From Mycobacterium sp. Root265 (GTDB lineage Bacteria > Actinomycetota > Actinomycetes > Mycobacteriales > Mycobacteriaceae), in the NCBI RefSeq assembly GCF_001428895.1, contig NZ_LMJA01000008.1:43349-107348 (forward strand): a DNA stretch of 64,000 nt. The letters are read 5' to 3'. Within the stretch, counting starts at the first letter, position 1. The number at the start of each line of letters is the position of its first letter. The position numbers were made by a program, and so were the translations under genes. The notes beneath the pieces were generated by a model. It saw only the letters and a program-made list of their open reading frames with translations. It was not told the origin of the DNA and made no database searches. Shown piece by piece: positions 2,676-48,924 of this stretch.

Positions 2676-3217
2676 CCGGTGAGGTACCGCTGCAGCGTGG
2701 GCCCGATCCACTCGACCAGCTCGTGGCGCGTCATCTCACGCAGCGGCGGGAACGCCAGCACGTATCGGCACAGCGCCATGCCGAGCACCTGCGAAGCGGC
2801 CAGGCTGGCCCGCTTGGGCGCCTGCTCCGGGTCGGCGACGGTCTTCATGATCACCGGCGCCAGTTGGGCCGCGAAGATGGTCCGCATCCGTTCCGCGACA
2901 GCCTCGTTGGTGACGCCGGCCCGCAGCAGGATGAGCAGCGCCTCGTCGCGTTCCCAGCGCTCCACGAAGTGGTCGGCCAGCGCGGCGCCGATCCCCTCGA
3001 CGGGGACCTGCGTCAGGTCCGGCAGTTCGAGGTCGAATTCCGCAGCCGCGGCGAACAGATTCTCCTTGTTGCCGTAGTAGCGCATCACCATCGACGGATC
3101 GATTCCGGCATCGGCGGCGATGGCCCGGATGGTGGCGCGCTCGTAGCCGTCCGCGGCGAAGCGTTCCCTGGCCGCGGCCAGGATCACCGCCTTGGTCTCG
3201 GTGGCCGGTCGTCTCAT
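2672..3217 (-). CDS. TetR-family transcriptional regulator
   Basis: 181 residues with an N-terminal TetR helix-turn-helix ([23 protein letters not shown], then the recognition region [20 protein letters not shown], residues about 12-57) and a variable C-terminal ligand domain. It is divergent from a flavin monooxygenase across a 98-bp gap that holds two identical-format inverted repeats, the first of which begins on the A of this ATG. A TACAAT -10 box on the minus strand (3225-3230) lies seven bases before the ATG, so the gene is probably leaderless and self-repressed. Effector unknown; an aromatic or polyketide-like substrate of the monooxygenase is a guess from context. Confidence 0.9.
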
Positions 3218-3248
3218 GTCAACGATTGTAGGCCAACAAGTGTTGACA
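3217..3248. promoter_or_regulatory. TetR operator-like inverted repeat, copy 1
   Basis: TGTCAAC-N18-GTTGACA, a 32-bp inverted repeat overlapping the minus-strand -10 box and start codon of the TetR gene. The internal 18 bp contains GGCCAACA, also present in copy 2. Seen directly; the operator role is inferred from the duplicated geometry between regulator and target. Confidence 0.75.
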
Positions 3249-3272
3249 TTGAGCCCATGGGCGACCTACCGT

Positions 3273-3304
3273 TGTCAACAGATGTTGGCCAACAGTTGTT
3301 GACA
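3273..3304. promoter_or_regulatory. TetR operator-like inverted repeat, copy 2
   Basis: A second TGTCAAC-N18-GTTGACA with exactly the same arm sequence and spacing as copy 1, and with an inner 12-bp palindrome TGTTGGCCAACA. It lies 56 bp from copy 1 (start to start) and runs into the ribosome-binding site AAGGAG of the monooxygenase, so binding would block its transcription or translation initiation region. Confidence 0.75.
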
Positions 3305-11253: not shown

Positions 11254-12525
11254 ATGGCGGCTGACATCGTCCCGGTCCGGATCGGGCTGACCAACGGCGA
11301 CCTCTACACACTGTGGGCACCGCGCTGGCGCGACGCCGGCGACGAATGGGAGGCGTTCCTCGGCAAGGACGAGGACATCTTCGCGTTCGAATCGGTCGCC
11401 GACCTGGCGGCGTTCGTGCGCACCGACAGCGACAACGATCTGACCGATCACCCCGCCTGGGAGAAGCTCACCCAGGCCAATGCGCATCGGTTCGATCCCG
11501 CCGAGGACCAGCAGCACGACCTGATCGCGGTGCCGGAGCTCGTCGCCGAGAAGCCCACCGAGGAGTCCATCAAGACGCTGCGCGGCACCTTGGGCTTCGT
11601 CTCGGCGATCGGCTCGGTGTGCGACCTGCCCACCGTCACCAAGATGTTCAACGGCAACCCCGTGCTGGGCACCATCGGCGGCGGCCTCGACGCGTTCAGC
11701 GGCCGCGCCGGACGCAAGCGGTGGGCCGAGATCGAGGCGGTGATCGGCCGCGCCTGGGACGGTGTCGTCGACGCGATCGACGCCTTGGTGAAGACCCCGG
11801 ACGTGCCCTCGGCGGAGTCGGCGAAGGCCGAAGCCGAGCTGGCCGAGCCCGCCCCCGAGATCGACGACATCATCGTCGACGACGAGGACGACGACGAGGT
11901 GGTCATCGAGGGCGTGGTGGACACCGAGGAGGAAAGCGACGCGCTGGAGGCCGAGGCCGAACGCCAGGTCCTCGGCAGCGACAAGGACTTCTGGACCCAG
12001 GTCGGTATCGACCCGATCCGGATCATGACCAGCAGCGGCACCCTGTACACGCTGCGCTGCTACTTCGGCGATGAACCGCGCTTCCTGGGCCGCAACGGCC
12101 GCATCAGCGTGTTCAGCTCCGAGCGCACCCTGGCCCGCTATCTGGCCGACGAACACGAGAGCGACCTGTCCGGTTTCAGCTCCTACGAGATCATCCGCAC
12201 CGCGGCGACCGACGGTTCGTTGCGCGTCGAGGTGACCGACGAGAACATCTACGTGCTGTCCGGTCTGGCCGACGATATCGCCGACGGCCCCGAGGCCGTC
12301 GACCGTGATCAGCTGGACCTGGCGCTGGAATTCCTCAGGGATGTCGGCGATTACGCCGAAGACCCGAGCGTGTCGAAGGCGCTGGAGTCCAGCCAGCCGC
12401 TGGGCGGCTTCGTCGACCACGTGCTCGACCCCAAGAAGCCCAAGCCCAAGGGTTCCACGGCCGAGGCCGTCGACCAGTGGGAAGAGCTGGAGCGCTTCGT
12501 CGAATCCCGGCTGCGCGCCGAGTGA
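11254..12525 (+). CDS. Conserved acidic mycobacterial protein, Rv3311-like
   Basis: 423 residues from ATG 11254. No signal peptide or membrane segment. The protein has two related halves, each beginning with a beta-rich segment of the form V/IRIGLTNGDLYTLWAPRW and IRIMTSSGTLYTLRCYFGD, joined by a strongly acidic linker around residues 200-235 (DDIIVDDEDDDEVVIEG). Length and position, just before add, match M. tuberculosis Rv3311 as I recall it. I see no catalytic motif. The internal duplication and acidic linker suggest a soluble scaffold or regulator; this is not established. Confidence 0.8.
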   Translation: MAADIVPVRIGLTNGDLYTLWAPRWRDAGDEWEAFLGKDEDIFAFESVADLAAFVRTDSDNDLTDHPAWEKLTQANAHRFDPAEDQQHDLIAVPELVAEKPTEESIKTLRGTLGFVSAIGSVCDLPTVTKMFNGNPVLGTIGGGLDAFSGRAGRKRWAEIEAVIGRAWDGVVDAIDALVKTPDVPSAESAKAEAELAEPAPEIDDIIVDDEDDDEVVIEGVVDTEEESDALEAEAERQVLGSDKDFWTQVGIDPIRIMTSSGTLYTLRCYFGDEPRFLGRNGRISVFSSERTLARYLADEHESDLSGFSSYEIIRTAATDGSLRVEVTDENIYVLSGLADDIADGPEAVDRDQLDLALEFLRDVGDYAEDPSVSKALESSQPLGGFVDHVLDPKKPKPKGSTAEAVDQWEELERFVESRLRAE

Positions 12526-12528
12526 CGT

Positions 12529-12567
12529 GTGGAGCGCCGGCCGTGACCATTACGGCCGCCGCTCCAC
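12529..12567. terminator. Hairpin between convergent genes (TGTGGAG family, diverged member)
   Basis: GTGGAGCG and CGCTCCAC arms enclose GGCCGT/ACGGCC with a 7-nt loop and one mismatched pair, all in the 57-bp gap between the Rv3311-like gene and add. There is no U-tract. The outer arm and the right flank AATCGC resemble the hairpins at 25356 and 48873. Likely bidirectional terminator. Confidence 0.65.
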
Positions 12568-12582
12568 GAATCGCCGCCGGGC

Positions 12583-15013: not shown

Positions 15014-15417
15014 GACGCCGGCCCCCGCCCCAGATCAGCCGGTCCGAAGGCGTCGGGCAGCAGGTCGGCGAGGGTGCGGGGTCCGTCTGGATGATCGATC
15101 AACAGCGCGGGTCCGCCGTGCTCCAGCAGCACCTGCCGGCACCGCCCACAGGGCATCAGGGGGGCGCCGTCGGCGGCCACACAACTGAGCGCCACCAGCC
15201 GCCCGCCACCGCTGGAATGCAGGGCGCAGACCACAGCGCACTCGGCACAGAGACCTAGGCCATATGAGACATTCTCCACATTGCATCCGAGGATGATTCG
15301 GCCATCGTCGACAATCGCAGCGGCACCGACCGGGAAGCCCGAATACGGCGCATAAGCCTGCCTTGTGACACTGATTGCGCTGTCCCGCAACGACTTCCAA
15401 TCAATTTCAACTACCAT
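15010..15417 (-). CDS. cdd: Cytidine deaminase
   Basis: About 135 residues from ATG 15417 (MVVEIDWKSLRD), the start chosen by comparison with the remembered M. tuberculosis protein; in-frame starts at 15438 and 15462 exist, and no start has a clear ribosome-binding site. Zinc ligands and catalytic Glu are in CNVENVSYGLGLCAECAVV (CAE motif) and PCGRCRQVLLE. It deaminates cytidine and deoxycytidine to uridine forms for DeoA and Upp. First gene of cdd-deoA(-add), divergent from sdhC. Confidence 0.93.
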   Translation of the reverse strand: MVVEIDWKSLRDSAISVTRQAYAPYSGFPVGAAAIVDDGRIILGCNVENVSYGLGLCAECAVVCALHSSGGGRLVALSCVAADGAPLMPCGRCRQVLLEHGGPALLIDHPDGPRTLADLLPDAFGPADLGRGPAS

Positions 15418-18319: not shown

Positions 18320-19105
18320 ATGACTGCTTCGGTCATCGAAAAGCCCGAAACCGGCGGCCCGGACCTTCCGCCCGTGCCCGACGGCGCGGTCATGGTCACC
18401 CTCAAGATCGCCCGGTTCAACCCGGACAGTCCCGACGACGCCGGCTACCAGAGCTACCGGGTCCCGTGTCTGCCCTCGGACCGTCTGCTCAACCTGCTGC
18501 ACTACGCGAAGTGGTACCTGGACGGCACGCTGACCTTCCGCCGTTCCTGCGCGCACGGCGTGTGCGGATCCGATGCCATGCGCATCAACGGGGTGAACCG
18601 GCTGGCGTGCAAGGTGCTGATGCGCGACCTGCTGCCCAAGAAGGCCTCCAAGCCGCTGACCATCACGATCGAACCGATCCGCGGCCTGCCCGTGGAGAAG
18701 GACCTCGTGGTGAACATGGAGCCGTTCTTCGACGCCTACCGCGCGGTCAAGCCGTTCCTGATCGCCAGCGGCAACGCTCCCACCAAGGAGCGCATCCAGA
18801 GCGCCACCGACCGGGCCCGCTACGACGACACCACCAAGTGCATCCTGTGCGCCTGCTGCACCACGTCGTGCCCTGTCTACTGGAGTGAAGGGTCGTACTT
18901 CGGGCCCGCCGCGATCGTCAACGCGCACCGGTTCATCTTCGATTCGCGCGACGAGGGCGCCGCCGAGCGCCTCGACATCCTCAACGAGGTCGACGGGGTG
19001 TGGCGTTGCCGCACCACGTTCAACTGCACCGAGGCCTGCCCGCGTGGCATCCAGGTGACCCAGGCGATCCAAGAGGTCAAACGCGCCTTGATGTTCGCGC
19101 GCTGA
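18320..19105 (+). CDS. sdhB: Succinate dehydrogenase iron-sulfur subunit
   Basis: 261 residues. The 2Fe-2S ligands are in SCAHGVCGSDAMRING (about residues 74-89), the 4Fe-4S and 3Fe-4S ligands in CILCACCTTSCPVYW (about 174-188) and CRTTFNCTEACPRGIQ (about 232-247). It transfers electrons from SdhA-FAD to the quinone site in SdhCD. The start lies one base after the sdhA stop. Transcription is likely ended by the hairpin at 19117-19173, which lies 11 bp after the stop. Confidence 0.97.
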   Translation: MTASVIEKPETGGPDLPPVPDGAVMVTLKIARFNPDSPDDAGYQSYRVPCLPSDRLLNLLHYAKWYLDGTLTFRRSCAHGVCGSDAMRINGVNRLACKVLMRDLLPKKASKPLTITIEPIRGLPVEKDLVVNMEPFFDAYRAVKPFLIASGNAPTKERIQSATDRARYDDTTKCILCACCTTSCPVYWSEGSYFGPAAIVNAHRFIFDSRDEGAAERLDILNEVDGVWRCRTTFNCTEACPRGIQVTQAIQEVKRALMFAR

Positions 19106-19116
19106 TTCCCTTCCGC

Positions 19117-19173
19117 CGAACGTGAACTAGATCGCGAGATTTCGTAGATTTCTCGCGATCTTCTTCACGTTGG
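19117..19173. repeat. 57-bp hairpin repeat, left copy (family CGAACGTGAA)
   Basis: CGAACGTGAA - 37 nt - TTCACGTTGG. Internally AACGTGAA, AGATCGCGAGA, TCTCGCGATCT and TTCACGTT form a near-perfect inverted repeat with an 11-nt loop. It sits between the convergent sdhB and DUF559 genes and encodes the last 15 or so residues of the DUF559 protein (from PNVKK to the stop). A right copy in the same orientation and of the same length is at 20070-20126; by hand alignment 42 of 57 positions agree. Confidence 0.8.
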
Positions 19174-20053
19174 GCAGGGGTTCGGGTGCGCCTGCCGCGT
19201 CCAGTTCCGCGCGGACTCGCCGGATGATCGTCGGCTGCCGGTATCTCAACAGGTCAGCGCCGACCCGGACGATGCGCCAGCCCAGTTCGCGATACGTCGC
19301 ATCCTGTTCGATGTCGAGGGTGCGCTGTCGCGGATCGGTCCAGTGCTGGAAGCCGTCGTACTGCACCCCGACCTTCCATTCGGGCCAGCCCATGTCGAGG
19401 CGGCCGACGATGCACCCGTGATCGATGACCTTGATCTGGGTCTGCGACGGCCGCATATGTGCACTCGTCAGTACCAGGCGAAGCCGCGTCTCCTGGGGTG
19501 ATTCGGCGCCCTCGTCGGCCAGGTCCAATACCTGACGCAACTGCACCAGCCCACGCATACCGCGGTGGCCATCGACCAGCGTCGTCACGTCGGCCAACGT
19601 CAGGTCCGTCGCCTCCAGCAGCGCGTCCACCCGCATCACGGCCAGTACGATTCCGCGCCGGCGCCCCAGGTCGAAGGCGGTCCGGGCCGGTGTAGTCGTC
19701 CGGATCCCATCGACCACGCAGATCTCGGCGTCGACCAGCACGTCACTGTGCAGAAGAATTCCGGCAGCCTTGTGCCGGCTGTCTTGGTTGATCTCGGCGG
19801 GCAATGCCGGGTCGATCCATTTCGCGCCGTGGAGCGCAGCTGCCGAAAGTCCGGCCACGACACCGCGCCCGCCTGACCACAGCCATGCGGCTTTCGCTTT
19901 ATCGGTCGGGGTCAGCACCGAGCCCCGCGGGGCGTAGACATCGCGGTGCAGCATGTCGTAGCAGGTGTTCAGTTGATGGCGGGTGACAGTACCCGCGGCC
20001 AGCGCCGCGCTTCCCAAAAGGAGCATGTGGAGTTGGACGCAGCGCAGCGGCAC
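19127..20053 (-). CDS. DUF559 nuclease-fold protein (AbiEi-like N-terminus, PD-(D/E)xK-like C-terminus)
   Basis: 308 residues from a GTG at 20053 preceded by AGGTGGA; an alternative ATG lies at 20026. The N-terminal third (LLLGSAALAAGTVTRHQLNT) resembles the winged-helix domain of AbiEi-like antitoxin/DUF559 proteins. The C-terminal part has a Vsr-like restriction-nuclease core: ESPQETRLRLVL, then GRLDMGWPEWKVGVQYDGFQHW with D...E-x-K spacing, then RELGWRIVRVGADLL. Such genes are abundant and scattered in mycobacteria, with unknown function. Here the gene is bracketed by two direct copies of a 57-bp hairpin repeat, and it replaces other material found between sdhB and sigJ in M. tuberculosis, which suggests mobility. 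Confidence 0.8.
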   Translation of the reverse strand: MPLRCVQLHMLLLGSAALAAGTVTRHQLNTCYDMLHRDVYAPRGSVLTPTDKAKAAWLWSGGRGVVAGLSAAALHGAKWIDPALPAEINQDSRHKAAGILLHSDVLVDAEICVVDGIRTTTPARTAFDLGRRRGIVLAVMRVDALLEATDLTLADVTTLVDGHRGMRGLVQLRQVLDLADEGAESPQETRLRLVLTSAHMRPSQTQIKVIDHGCIVGRLDMGWPEWKVGVQYDGFQHWTDPRQRTLDIEQDATYRELGWRIVRVGADLLRYRQPTIIRRVRAELDAAGAPEPLPNVKKIARNLRNLAI

Positions 20054-20069
20054 GCGGTTCCACCTGCGT

Positions 20070-20126
20070 CGAACGTGAAGTCGTTCGCGAGATTCCGGTC
20101 AAAGTGCCCGATCTACTTCACGTTCG
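20070..20126. repeat. 57-bp hairpin repeat, right copy (family CGAACGTGAA)
   Basis: CGAACGTGAA - 37 nt - TTCACGTTCG, same orientation and length as the copy at 19117. The outer arms extend to a perfect 17-bp inverted repeat, TGCGTCGAACGTGAAGT (20065-20081) with ACTTCACGTTCGACGCA (20115-20131). It carries the stop codon and last codons (SNVK) of the AI-2E-type gene and lies upstream of the DUF559 start, so it may also terminate the AI-2E transcript. Confidence 0.8.
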
Positions 20127-21285
20127 ACGCATCCTCGGCGGGTGCGGCGTCCGCTTCGGGTTCTGATTCGAATTGCAGATCAAGCTCGGGTTGGGGTTCG
20201 GGTTCGTTCTCCCGGGTCCGCTCGGCGACCTGCTCGTCGTAGTAGCGGATGATGACCGCCACCGCCGCGGCCACCGGGACGGCCAGGAAAGCGCCGATCA
20301 CACCGAACGTGGACGCGCCCAGCGTGACGGCCAGCAGCACGATCACCGCGTGCAGGTTCATCGACTTGGACTGCAGCCAGGGCTGCAGCACGTTGCCCTC
20401 CAGCTGCTGCACCGCGACGATGATGCCCAGCACGATCAGGGCGACGATGGGGCCGTTGGCGACCAGCGCGATCAACACCGCAAGACCGCCGGCGACGAAC
20501 GCACCGACGATCGGGACGAAACCACCGATGAAGGTGACGATGGCCAACGCGTAGGCCAGCGGCACCCCGAGGACCACCAGCCCGATCCCGATGAGCACGG
20601 CGTCGACGAAACTGACCAGCGCCTGGGTGCGGATGAAGCCGCCGAGCGTCGACCAGATGCGTTGCAGCACCTCGGCCAGGTGCGGTGCGGAAGGGTGCCC
20701 GACGGAGCGCCGCAACCACGGGATGAACTGCGGCCCGTCCTTGAGCAGAAAGAACACCACGACGATGGTCGTGAAGACCGTCACCAGCGCCGATGTTGCC
20801 GCGCCCACCCCGGTGAACACGCCCGAGGCGATCTGGGAGCTGCTCGAGTTCAGTTGGTCGTTGATCGCGGTGACGGCCGAATCGAGCTGCGCCTGACTGA
20901 TGTTCAGCGGCGGCCCGCCCAGCCAGTCGCGGACTTGCACCACACCGGCGGTCGCCTGCTCGGCCAGTTCGGTGGACTGCTCCACGATGGCAGGCGCCAC
21001 CGCGGCGATCAGGCCGCCGATCACGGCCAAGCCGACCAGCAGCATGATCAGCGCCGCCGCGGCCGGCGGCAACCCCTTGGACCGCATCCACCGCACCGGC
21101 GGCCACAGCACCGTGCACAGCACCACCGCCAGTGCGACGGGCAGGATGATCACCCATGTCTCGCCGACGACCCAGGCGAGAATCCACAGCAGCGCGGACA
21201 CCGCGACGATCTGCACCGAGACCGTGGCGGCGGATCGAAGATGCGTCCCGAATACCGAGCCACGGCTCGGCGCTATGTCAGTCAC
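20113..21285 (-). CDS. AI-2E family transporter (DUF20 permease)
   Basis: 390 residues from a GTG at 21285, preceded by GAGAGGGAAG; a longer reading frame exists but has no ribosome-binding site and overlaps the promoter of the next gene. About eight hydrophobic segments, with the family's central soluble stretch (AEQATAGVVQVRDWL, then LNISQAQLDSAVTAINDQL) and conserved GGFVPIVGAFVAGGLAVLIAL and AVQQLEGNVLQPWL motifs. The C-terminus is very acidic (EPEPQPELDLQFESEPEADA). Members export or exchange small molecules or ions; the name comes from TqsA and does not imply AI-2 here. The last codons lie in the right hairpin repeat. Confidence 0.85.
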   Translation of the reverse strand: MTDIAPSRGSVFGTHLRSAATVSVQIVAVSALLWILAWVVGETWVIILPVALAVVLCTVLWPPVRWMRSKGLPPAAAALIMLLVGLAVIGGLIAAVAPAIVEQSTELAEQATAGVVQVRDWLGGPPLNISQAQLDSAVTAINDQLNSSSSQIASGVFTGVGAATSALVTVFTTIVVVFFLLKDGPQFIPWLRRSVGHPSAPHLAEVLQRIWSTLGGFIRTQALVSFVDAVLIGIGLVVLGVPLAYALAIVTFIGGFVPIVGAFVAGGLAVLIALVANGPIVALIVLGIIVAVQQLEGNVLQPWLQSKSMNLHAVIVLLAVTLGASTFGVIGAFLAVPVAAAVAVIIRYYDEQVAERTRENEPEPQPELDLQFESEPEADAAPAEDASNVK

Positions 21286-21329
21286 GCTTCCCTCTCTACC
21301 CGCCGACGGCCGGTTCGAACGACTTCTGG

Positions 21330-21356
21330 TGTCACAATCTCGCAGGCTGCCTCGTC
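21330..21356 (+). promoter_or_regulatory. ECF41 (SigJ) target promoter
   Basis: TGTCACA (21330-21336), 16 bp, CGTC (21353-21356). As I recall it, this is exactly the published ECF41 consensus. It ends 8 bp before the ATG of the carboxymuconolactone-decarboxylase-like gene, so that gene would be leaderless. The ECF41-type SigJ gene is its convergent neighbour. Confidence 0.78.
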
Positions 21357-21364
21357 TCACCGGT

Positions 21365-21940
21365 ATGACCACGAGAATCGCTCCGCTAGCCCCCAACGAT
21401 GCCGGCCTGTTGACCCGGATGATGTACCGCTACGCCAAGCGGCGGTTCGGTGAGGTGCCCGAGCCGTTCGCCGTCGCGGCCCATCACCCGCGCCTGCTGA
21501 TCGCCAACGGTGTGCACGAGACGCTGCTGCAGGCCGGATCGAAGAAACTGCCGACCAGCGTCCGCGAGCTCGCCGTGTTCTGGACCGCCCGCACCGTCGG
21601 CTGCTCCTGGTGCGTGGACTTCGGCGCCATGCTGCAGCGGCTCGACGGCCTCGACGTCGACCGGCTCAAACACATCGACGACTACGCGACGTCGGCGTCG
21701 TTCAGCGATGACGAGCGCGCCGCGATCGGCTACGCCGACGCCATGACCACCGACCCGCACGCCGTGACCGACGAGCAGGTGGCCGATCTGCGGCGGCGGT
21801 TCGGTGATGACGGCGTGATCGAGCTGACGTATCAGATCGGGGTGGAGAACATGCGGGCCCGGATGTACTCGGCGCTGGGCATCACCGAGCAGGGCTTCAG
21901 CTCCGGGGACGCCTGCCGGGTGCCGTGGGCGACTGACTAA
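21365..21940 (+). CDS. Carboxymuconolactone decarboxylase/AhpD-like protein
   Basis: 191 residues. The core TSVRELAVFWTARTVGCSWCVDFGAMLQR has the CxxC redox pair of AhpD-like members of the CMD family (residues about 79-82), followed by helices ending in LTYQIGVENMRARMYSALGI. Likely a small oxidoreductase or peroxidase acting in stress defence. CMD proteins are among the classic partners of ECF41 sigma factors, and this gene has a perfect ECF41 promoter upstream and overlaps the sigJ 3' end by 4 bp (convergent). The ATG at 21365 is very close to the predicted transcription start. Confidence 0.85.
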   Translation: MTTRIAPLAPNDAGLLTRMMYRYAKRRFGEVPEPFAVAAHHPRLLIANGVHETLLQAGSKKLPTSVRELAVFWTARTVGCSWCVDFGAMLQRLDGLDVDRLKHIDDYATSASFSDDERAAIGYADAMTTDPHAVTDEQVADLRRRFGDDGVIELTYQIGVENMRARMYSALGITEQGFSSGDACRVPWATD

Positions 21941-24488: not shown

Positions 24489-25352
24489 ATGCATCTGACT
24501 GTCGGATATCTGGCGACACCGACCGGCGACGACGGTGTCGCCCTGGCTGCCGCGCTGGCCCGTACCTTCGGCGCCGACGTGGACGTCGTCCTGGTGGTGC
24601 GCGAAGAGTTTCCCGACGGCCATCCCGGACGCGGTCAGTATCAGGAGTTCCTGCTCGAACGCGGGCAGGAGTGGATCGCCAAGGCGGTGTCGAACCTCAC
24701 CGGTGTGGCGAAGTCGGTCAAAGCCAATGTCCTGGTGGGCGAATCGTTCGCCGAGACATTGCTGCAATTCGCCGAGACACACGAATCCGACCTCATCGTG
24801 GTCGGCGGCGCCCGCGACGGATTCTTCGGCGGGCATGTGATCGGCCCGGTGTCGAGTGCGCTGCTGCACAGTTCGACGATCCCCGTCGCGCTGGCTCCGC
24901 GCGGCTATGCCGACGACGCGCCCGAACGTATCGAAGCCATCACCGCCGCGGTGCCCAGCAAGGTCGGCGACGACAATCCGTTGCCCTTTGCCATCACTCT
25001 GGCTAGTGCGGCCAATCTTCCCATCCGGATGGTCTCGCTGGTGTCGGCCGAAAACCTCGCCGAGGCCGCCGATCTCGAGGATCTGCGGGCAATGCAGATC
25101 AGCGCCGCCCGGCAGAACCTGACCGTGGCCGCCCGCGCCCTGCCCGATTCACCCGATATCGAATCCCTGGTGGCCGAGGGGATGACGCTGGAGTCCGCGC
25201 TCAAGAAGCTCAACTGGGATGACACCGACGTGCTGGTGGTCGGCTCCAGCCGGTTCGCCGCGCCCAAACGCATCTTCCTGGGCTCCACCGCATCACGCAT
25301 CCTGGCCGGCACCGATGCACCGGTTATCGTGATCCCGCGCGGCGAGGAGTAG
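24489..25352 (+). CDS. Tandem universal stress protein
   Basis: 287 residues with two UspA-like halves. The first ends in LIVVGGARDGFFGGHVIGPVSSALLHSSTIPV (residues about 103-135) and the second in LVVGSSRFAAPKRIFLGSTASRILAGTDAPVIVIPR (about 247-283). The second resembles the G-x2-G-x9-G-S/T ATP-binding motif. It begins 21 bp after the permease and is likely cotranscribed. Permease-Usp gene pairs are common among APC transporters, where the Usp domain is thought to modulate transport. The convergent gap downstream holds a 45-bp hairpin. Confidence 0.85.
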   Translation: MHLTVGYLATPTGDDGVALAAALARTFGADVDVVLVVREEFPDGHPGRGQYQEFLLERGQEWIAKAVSNLTGVAKSVKANVLVGESFAETLLQFAETHESDLIVVGGARDGFFGGHVIGPVSSALLHSSTIPVALAPRGYADDAPERIEAITAAVPSKVGDDNPLPFAITLASAANLPIRMVSLVSAENLAEAADLEDLRAMQISAARQNLTVAARALPDSPDIESLVAEGMTLESALKKLNWDDTDVLVVGSSRFAAPKRIFLGSTASRILAGTDAPVIVIPRGEE

Positions 25353-25355
25353 CGG

Positions 25356-25400
25356 TTTGTGGAGTTTTCGTCGGAATGGTTCCGACGAAAACTCCACAAA
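25356..25400. terminator. Perfect 21-bp-stem hairpin between convergent genes (TTGTGGAGTT family)
   Basis: A 21-nt arm beginning TTTGTGGAGTT and ending TCGGAA, a 3-nt loop, and its exact reverse complement, flanked by GCG/CGC. It fills the 55-bp gap between the Usp and aldehyde dehydrogenase genes. No U-tract. A sister hairpin with compensatory stem changes is at 48873-48915. Probable bidirectional terminator or dispersed palindromic element. Confidence 0.8.
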
Positions 25401-25407
25401 TCGCAAT

Positions 25408-31141: not shown

Positions 31142-31459
31142 ATGGCTTGGTTGATTCTGGTGATCTCGGGTGTGCTGGAGGCCGTCTGGGCCACCGCGCT
31201 CGGCAGGTCCGAGGGCTTCACGAGAATGGGCCCGTCGGTGGTATTCGGTGTGGCGCTGGTGTTCTCGATGGCGGGCCTGGCCTTCGCGATGCGCTCACTC
31301 CCGATCGGCACCAGCTACGCGATCTGGGTGGGTATCGGCGCCGCGCTGACCGTGGGCTACGCGATGTTCACCGGTTCCGAGGGCGCCTCACTGATCAAGG
31401 TGGCGCTGATCCTCGGCATCATCGGCTGCGTCGTCGGCCTCAAGGTGATCGGGCACTAA
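31142..31459 (+). CDS. gdx: SMR-family guanidinium exporter (Gdx/SugE type)
   Basis: 105 residues, four membrane helices, typical of small multidrug resistance dimers. Residues G10, E13, W16, S42 and W62, which distinguish Gdx guanidinium exporters from promiscuous EmrE drug exporters, are all present (LVISGVLEAVW, VFSMAGLAF, SYAIWVGIG). E13 is the proton/substrate site. A guanidine-III riboswitch lies directly upstream with GGAGGG six bases before the ATG, so sequence and regulation agree on guanidinium-proton antiport. Overlaps the convergent YihY gene by 4 bp. Confidence 0.92.
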   Translation: MAWLILVISGVLEAVWATALGRSEGFTRMGPSVVFGVALVFSMAGLAFAMRSLPIGTSYAIWVGIGAALTVGYAMFTGSEGASLIKVALILGIIGCVVGLKVIGH

Positions 31460-36433: not shown

Positions 36434-36441
36434 CGCCAGTT

Positions 36442-48861: not shown

Positions 48862-48872
48862 TACGTCGCGAC

Positions 48873-48915
48873 TTGTGGAGTTCTGGTCGGAATCATTCCG
48901 ACCAGAACTCCGCAA
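48873..48915. terminator. 20-bp-stem hairpin between convergent genes (TTGTGGAGTT family)
   Basis: TTGTGGAGTT-CTGG-TCGGAA, loop TCA, TTCCGA-CCAG-AACTCCGCAA, flanked by GCGA and TCGC. Same outer and inner stem blocks as 25356-25400, with the middle four pairs changed to CTGG/CCAG from TTCG/CGAA, i.e. compensated on both strands; one outer pair is T-G. It lies in the 63-bp gap between the Rv1747-like gene and mfpA. Confidence 0.8.
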
Positions 48916-48924
48916 ATCGCGCGG

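Follow-up and report, generated by a model that had tools for sequence, protein, structure and literature searches.

The closest described systems are the REPIN-RAYT systems or REPtrons (REP plus TnpA-REP); the REPtron is defined in the accessible part of PMC8266576 and the REPIN is covered in that of PMC3116915. As far as these texts and the accessible part of PMC1525189 go, they are characterized by dispersed palindromes at gene ends, and REPs are targets of insertion sequences (PMC1525189). The enzyme gene adjoins its own palindrome, and several parallel palindrome-enzyme pairs exist of which both partners diversify together. These traits are shared by the system described here. Enzymes of the EDxHD type are named as a homing family in the accessible part of PMC6083498. 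VsrA of Caulobacter, like the proteins studied here a DUF559, Vsr-like nuclease, is discussed together with mismatch repair and a cytosine methyltransferase in PMC12907096, in whose accessible text the words hairpin and palindrom are absent. A stem-loop survey (PMC2267715) deals with M. tuberculosis families, and the words nuclease and transposase are absent from its accessible text. Among the full-text matches listed, from which most subscription papers fall outside, none tied DUF559 or Vsr-like genes to hairpin repeats.

The DNA analyzed here, referred to as the window, is a stretch of 64,000 nucleotides from Mycobacterium sp. Root265. With a probability of about 65%, it holds one unit of an Actinomycetia nuclease-plus-hairpin system that resembles REPIN-RAYT in its working and is built on an unrelated enzyme. 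The REPIN-RAYT enzyme is the HuH Y1 transposase TnpA-REP, whereas the enzyme encoded here combines an AbiEi-like with a Vsr-like half. The action in trans of a Y1/RAYT enzyme was considered and rejected, as no match to Y1_Tnp (PF01797) was obtained in the window genome at E 0.01, a search in which 6 of 14 control genomes were positive. Membership in REPIN-RAYT thus fails because the HuH Y1 transposase is absent from the protein and from the genome; judged by this comparison, the statement that the locus works like a REPIN-RAYT system stands, but the statement that it is one does not.

The window gene, its product and its hairpins

The features of the locus are as follows.

18320..19105, + strand: sdhB, left neighbor (context)
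19117-19173, extendable to 19115-19175, no strand assigned: left (3') hairpin of the nuclease gene, holding the stop and last codons of the nuclease ORF
19127..20053, - strand: nuclease gene, AbiEi-like / MTES_1575-DUF559 (Vsr-like), 308 aa as listed
20070-20126, extendable to 20065-20131, no strand assigned: right (5') hairpin of the nuclease gene, overlapping the 3' end of the AI-2E transporter gene
20113..21396, - strand: ORF of an AI-2E family transporter, right neighbor (context)

Two 57-bp hairpins bracket the nuclease gene, as an earlier sequence-only reading of this DNA had reported, and its count of 42 identical positions out of 57 on the same strand was reproduced. The same orientation that it had assigned to them carries no force, because both hairpins are near-palindromes that are also identical at 41 of 57 positions on opposite strands, so that their relative orientation is uninformative. 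It had correctly placed the last codons of the nuclease ORF in the left copy and the end of the AI-2E ORF in the right one; the residues NVK are common to both protein tails because the underlying hairpin DNA is shared. The left hairpin lies between the convergent ends of sdhB (+ strand, ending at 19105) and of the nuclease gene (- strand). Translation of the latter may start at the ATG at 20024-20026 (codon 10), which is near the onset of homology. The exact two-arm pattern of the hairpins occurred in 0 of 100 shuffles of the window, and the 6.67-Mb assembly contains no further site, that is, no solo copy of the window gene's own exact pattern. RNA folding of the two strands yielded -42.7/-39.9 kcal/mol (z -8.7/-9.0) for the first hairpin and -33.7/-34.5 kcal/mol (z -5.0/-4.7) for the second. 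No Rfam identity was found, Ms_IGR-8 and microRNA models remaining far under their gathering scores. Elsewhere in the window, at 3217-3304, TGTCAAC...GTTGACA dyads are kept in five relatives; this hairpin was rejected as a family member, since the conserved dyads are probably an operator within a promoter and have no relation to the hairpin families.

The N-terminal half of the protein matches AbiEi profiles (PADLOC, best E 3.7e-11), a trait that it has in common with the AbiEi antitoxins of type IV AbiE systems; unlike these, it is fused to a nuclease half and has no adjacent AbiEii gene, its neighbors being sdhB and the AI-2E gene. The C-terminal half matches the Pfam family PF18741 (MTES_1575) with an E of 3.6e-4, which is under the curated cut-off. 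PF04480 (DUF559) was not matched by the window protein at E 0.1; it was matched by 33 of 49 aligned relatives at E 0.01, compared with 48 of 49 for PF18741. MTES_1575, DUF559 and AbiEi_1 were the only Pfam families found in these proteins.

Two sets of the available proteins, one of 19 and one of 49, were aligned. E188, D220 and D247 were present in all 64 alignable proteins and D233 in 61 of them, 17 of 81 loci having been left out of this count for want of a stop or of a start codon near the homology start. Position 231 was E in 48, Q in 15, including the window protein, and D in 1 of the 64. A second alignment (n=49) gave 48/49 for E188 and 49/49 for both D220 and D247. E188, D220 and D247 are, as judged from these alignments, conserved residues of catalytic or active-site type, and with H237 they make up what we take to be an EDxHD-type (Vsr-like) motif. 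Similar conserved residues are found in the EDxHD homing endonucleases, from which the present system differs in that there is no intron or intein and in that the gene keeps a hairpin on either side and hairpins are found where the gene is missing as well. A search of the PDB for a solved structure related by sequence returned none. The dN/dS values of four pairs of relatives were 0.09-0.21, and the nuclease gene is therefore under purifying selection. A relative was detected at E 1e-10 in 196 of the 198 genomes of the genus, and the window genome itself possesses at least 11 relatives of the nuclease; at E 0.1, the MTES_1575 model matched 14 times in it. The strongest matches to this model in the class were much longer frames of different architecture.

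Matching hairpins at both ends of related genes

In a set of 81 loci, the mean score of a gene's own 5' flank against its own 3' flank was 68.3, compared with 30.2 between loci, and the highest of 10,000 permutation means was 36.7. The own 3' flank was the best of all in 38 loci, and a score of at least 50 was reached in 61 of the 81 loci versus 4.8% of the cross pairs. L152 and L067 are the same locus, so that the set comprises 80 distinct ones; its genomes partly overlap those of a set of 80 named loci, for which the corresponding values were 67.5 within loci, 31.2 between loci and 37.3 as permutation maximum, with the own 3' flank best in 35. At the same threshold of 50, 65 of the 80 named loci stood against 2 of 782 control windows from the same loci and 6.6% of cross pairs. 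Scores below 50 were obtained for 20/81 and 15/80 loci. Within the L003-type subset (L132-L151), 8 of 20 loci matched, and the rest were mostly without a detected 3' hairpin. Strong hairpins (score of at least 14) cluster at the gene ends of the 80 loci: 24 were found in the 100 bp before the genes and 34 in the 100 bp after them, as opposed to a total of 12 in the bins more than about 300 bp away within a range of 3 kb, and the enrichment at gene ends is 90- to 180-fold per 100 bp. At the level of sequence, the linkage between nuclease and hairpin is thus established.

The matched pairs are specific to their loci. Three paralogues of the window genome (L073, L076 and L077) carry three different matched pairs, and in orthologues at the sdhB slot both hairpins have changed together, to read GTGAA...GATCGCGAG in the window genome and G096, GTTGGCTTGTGT in G187 and CCTGAGCTTGTG in G020 and G128. 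The sequence-only reading had offered as its alternative that both window repeats are ordinary terminators of one dispersed family; these paralogue-specific pairs matching within a locus, together with the enrichment at gene ends, lead us to reject it as a sufficient account. When the exact two-arm patterns of two relatives of the window's family were searched, they occurred in 3 and 11 of 198 genomes, and the hairpin families are therefore narrow; a near family of the window hairpin occurs 1-3 times in 11/198 genomes, partly beside the gene. Hairpin similarity correlated with protein similarity for the N-terminal half (Spearman 0.49) as well as for the C-terminal half (0.51), the two halves being themselves correlated at 0.84; this analysis was based on those 113 distinct proteins, out of 161 records, whose hairpin scored at least 12.

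In other genera of the class, the flank score was at least 50 in 10 of 20 loci, compared with 3.2% of cross pairs, in a sample of hand-picked matches of which nearly all frames had approximately 290-350 codons and several were miscalled by the script. Matching hairpins are plain in L289, L291, L293, L294 and L297; those of L299 match by eye, its low score resulting from one hairpin that lies outside the scored flank. Taking these flanks as a guide, the nuclease-hairpin layout is general and recurs in other genera of the class.

Solo copies, variable sites and concerted evolution

The window also contains three hairpins of a second family, each as a solo copy.

12524..12572, no strand assigned: second family (GATTTGTGGAGT...ACTCCACAAATC), solo and somewhat decayed, flanked by convergent stops
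25352..25404, no strand assigned: second family, solo, flanked by convergent stops
48867..48921, no strand assigned: second family, solo, also found in G096, G187 and G178

The cognate nuclease gene of the GATTTGTGGAGT family, L003, is situated on another contig (G000:C4:169-1065) and is bracketed by the same hairpin. A search with one arm of this family (GATTTGTGG), permitting at most 2 mismatches, was positive in 4 of 198 genomes, with 18 arm hits at 14 places in the window genome, some of which are halves split by an insertion sequence; the reversed-pattern control gave single hits in two other genomes. The GCGAAACTCGCGTACC family of L073 is represented by 12 palindromes in the window genome, two of them bracketing L073, and by 9 palindromes and 5 single arms in G034, where one pair has the identical spacing of 955 bp; the other 58 of 60 genomes had 0-3 hits each, similar to the control (0-4). 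Solo copies were hence found for two of the three families searched in the window genome, roughly ten each, so that the palindrome dispersed outside genes that is typical of REPIN-RAYT is seen for these two families and not for the window's exact pattern. The palindromes measure approximately 45-70 bp, and their roughly ten solo copies per family compare with hundreds in the case of classical REPs. Solo GATTTGTGG copies are also present in G187 and G034. A probe made from the N-terminus of the cognate gene gave no match in G034, and its only match in G187 was a 67% relative whose hairpin is different; such copies therefore persist without a close cognate gene.

Among 19 solo copies, 12 lie between two convergent stop codons, as compared with 7 of 619 background positions of the window, and 18 abut at least one gene end. 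These copies were hand-picked, leaving out those split by insertion sequences or flanking a gene, and represent about ten distinct sites by their flanks, six of which are convergent. Solo hairpins may plausibly act as bidirectional terminators, and the whole pattern could in principle consist of such terminators homogenized by ordinary recombination, with the nuclease genes as passengers in terminator slots. This would fit the convergent placement and the one rearrangement between copies that was seen (below), and copying by the nuclease has been deduced rather than observed. Such hairpins are, however, rare elsewhere within 3 kb of the genes, each paralogue carries a matched pair that differs from those of the others, and the solo copies correspond to a gene located elsewhere in the genome, which together make this explanation very improbable.

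Several sites are occupied in some genomes and empty in others. The hairpin at 25352 is present in the window genome, G178, G121 and G034 and absent from the orthologous site of G096 and G187, and at 36434 another hairpin is found in G187 and G121 and none in the window genome or G096. At 48867-48921, G121 has a 2.48-kb insert instead of the hairpin, and at 12524, G034 has 1385 bases, including an IS481-type transposase gene, for the 48 window bases 12535-12582. As separate observations, G187 alone has a 138-bp insert at 31459 with a hairpin (GCACCGTTTTCTACGCC...) that by eye resembles the 5' hairpin of the paralogue L079, and in place of the 12 bases at 15014-15025, G096, G034 and G121 have related filler of 77-128 bp (TCGCTCCGGTCCTCGCTCGTACCTCGCTGCG...), perhaps another dispersed sequence.

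For the sdhB slot, 187 genomes gave a match, and the 30 most similar of them comprised 13 with gene and hairpin, 11 with a hairpin only and 6 with neither; the single hairpin between sdhB and the AI-2E gene in G179 belongs to another family. It had been proposed beforehand that repeats at convergent gene ends lacking the gene, and conservation of the gene at this site across the genus, would speak against a link. Convergent gene ends that have a hairpin and lack the gene were indeed found, as expected for dispersed hairpins, but the gene-less alleles show that conservation is not universal. The variable occupancy of the slot, as well as the matches to AbiEi and, weakly, to defence-nuclease profiles (PADLOC), would also fit a phage defence enzyme around whose gene the hairpins are marks, decoys or recombination hotspots; this role leaves the family-specific solo hairpins unexplained, partner genes are absent beside the window gene, and we regard it as the least probable of the alternatives, with very little in the balance for it. 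Two further observations concern sdhB: G087 has two copies of equal score, one beside a nuclease gene and the other (L028) without gene or hairpin, and in L025 (G123) a tandem repeat of about 59 bp, seen by eye, starts at the sdhB stop.

The stems are maintained while their sequence changes. In 27 distinct copies (29 found, minus one 44-mer and one repeat), 94% of the cells were paired and 12 of 23 pairs had changed on both sides, a count reached by 4 of 500 shuffles; the covariation score of 0.341 was reached by none of 500. Inner-stem identity was 0.77 between sites within a clade, 0.48 for the same site between clades and 0.44 for unrelated pairs, and none of 5000 label shuffles equaled the contrast of 0.77 versus 0.48. 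This set consisted of 27 copies from six genomes with clades defined by us; a first run used 22 of the 27, and L116 and L121 were labelled as two sites while being one. The higher identity within clades therefore indicates concerted evolution, as is expected if copies are rewritten from one another.

AbiEi proteins autoregulate via inverted repeats, and the window protein might accordingly be a winged-helix repressor of AbiEi type with palindromic operators flanking its own gene, the solo copies being regulatory or terminators and the nuclease half doing something else. The AbiEi match of the N-terminal half, the position of the right hairpin just upstream of the nuclease start and the many L003-type loci for which only a 5' hairpin was detected are in line with this. 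Operators leave unexplained the hairpins at the 3' end of genes, the copies between convergent stops, the presence/absence alleles, and the stem covariation with concerted evolution, and we consider this explanation unlikely, if the most serious of those weighed here.

The hairpins are also sites of insertion and rearrangement. Five copies of the GATTTGTGG family from the window genome and G034 (L114, L117, L108, L112 and the 5' hairpin of L003) are interrupted at the same hairpin position by an element whose ends are TGTCTCGGGACATCGC-like and which in L112 carries a transposase with IS481-type domains; this splitting parallels the targeting of REPs by insertion sequences. In G034, synteny with the window stops at the 25352 hairpin, and a copy there joins the gene to the right of this site to one from a different hairpin site, with flank scores of 298 and 296; copies have therefore served as rearrangement points. 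Contigs C4, C11, C13, C14 and C27 of G000 begin 99-141 bp from a family arm, with the end of an insertion sequence visible at the start of C4 and C14 and another sequence at that of C11.

Proposed working and significance

The sequence-only reading had likened the nuclease and its hairpin to RAYT and REP. The association is strongly borne out by the flank scores in both sets of loci, the cognate solo copies of two families, the presence/absence alleles and the concerted evolution; the part of the claim concerning mobilization or maintenance by the nuclease goes further, and we infer binding, cutting, the copying route and terminator activity from the genomic pattern. In the nuclease-plus-hairpin system proposed here, a stand-alone protein, composed of an AbiEi-like half for DNA binding and a nuclease half that is Vsr-like (EDxHD-type, DUF559/MTES_1575), would recognize a palindrome of about 50-65 bp, two copies of which bracket its gene and solo copies of which may lie elsewhere at gene ends, often in short gaps between convergent genes. 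Binding of the palindrome by the protein, in the form of a duplex, a cruciform or a hairpin on the lagging strand, would be followed by a nick or cut, and repair from another copy would then insert or rewrite the palindrome. Solo copies would be tolerated in convergent gaps, where they may serve as bidirectional terminators. The outcome would be the spread of hairpins, the joint evolution of the copies of a lineage and a private hairpin for each paralogue. The low copy numbers, with some ten solo copies for each of the two families, argue against this proposal, as do the solo copies of G034 and G187, where the probe detected no close cognate gene, and the fifth to a quarter of loci whose flanks do not clearly match; these nucleases nevertheless probably copy and maintain their own hairpin families, as far as comparative data can tell.

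We lean slightly towards a broader idea, namely that the Actinomycetia have invented a second, independent REP-like world, in which a large family of AbiEi-Vsr-like nucleases, with about a dozen paralogues per mycobacterial genome, would each copy, homogenize and let drift a private hairpin, and in which the turnover of these hairpins would give rise to many of the strong hairpins that separate convergent genes and would create targets for recombination and insertion sequences. If true, this would add a second class of enzymes to the maintenance of dispersed palindromes, so far tied to HuH/Y1 transposases, and would provide a function for a large family of orphan nucleases. The parallel protein-hairpin pairs would form a natural set for the study of the evolution of DNA specificity. 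Furthermore, an origin would be given for many of the strong hairpins between convergent mycobacterial genes, which would bear on the origin of terminators and on the rearrangement of chromosomes.
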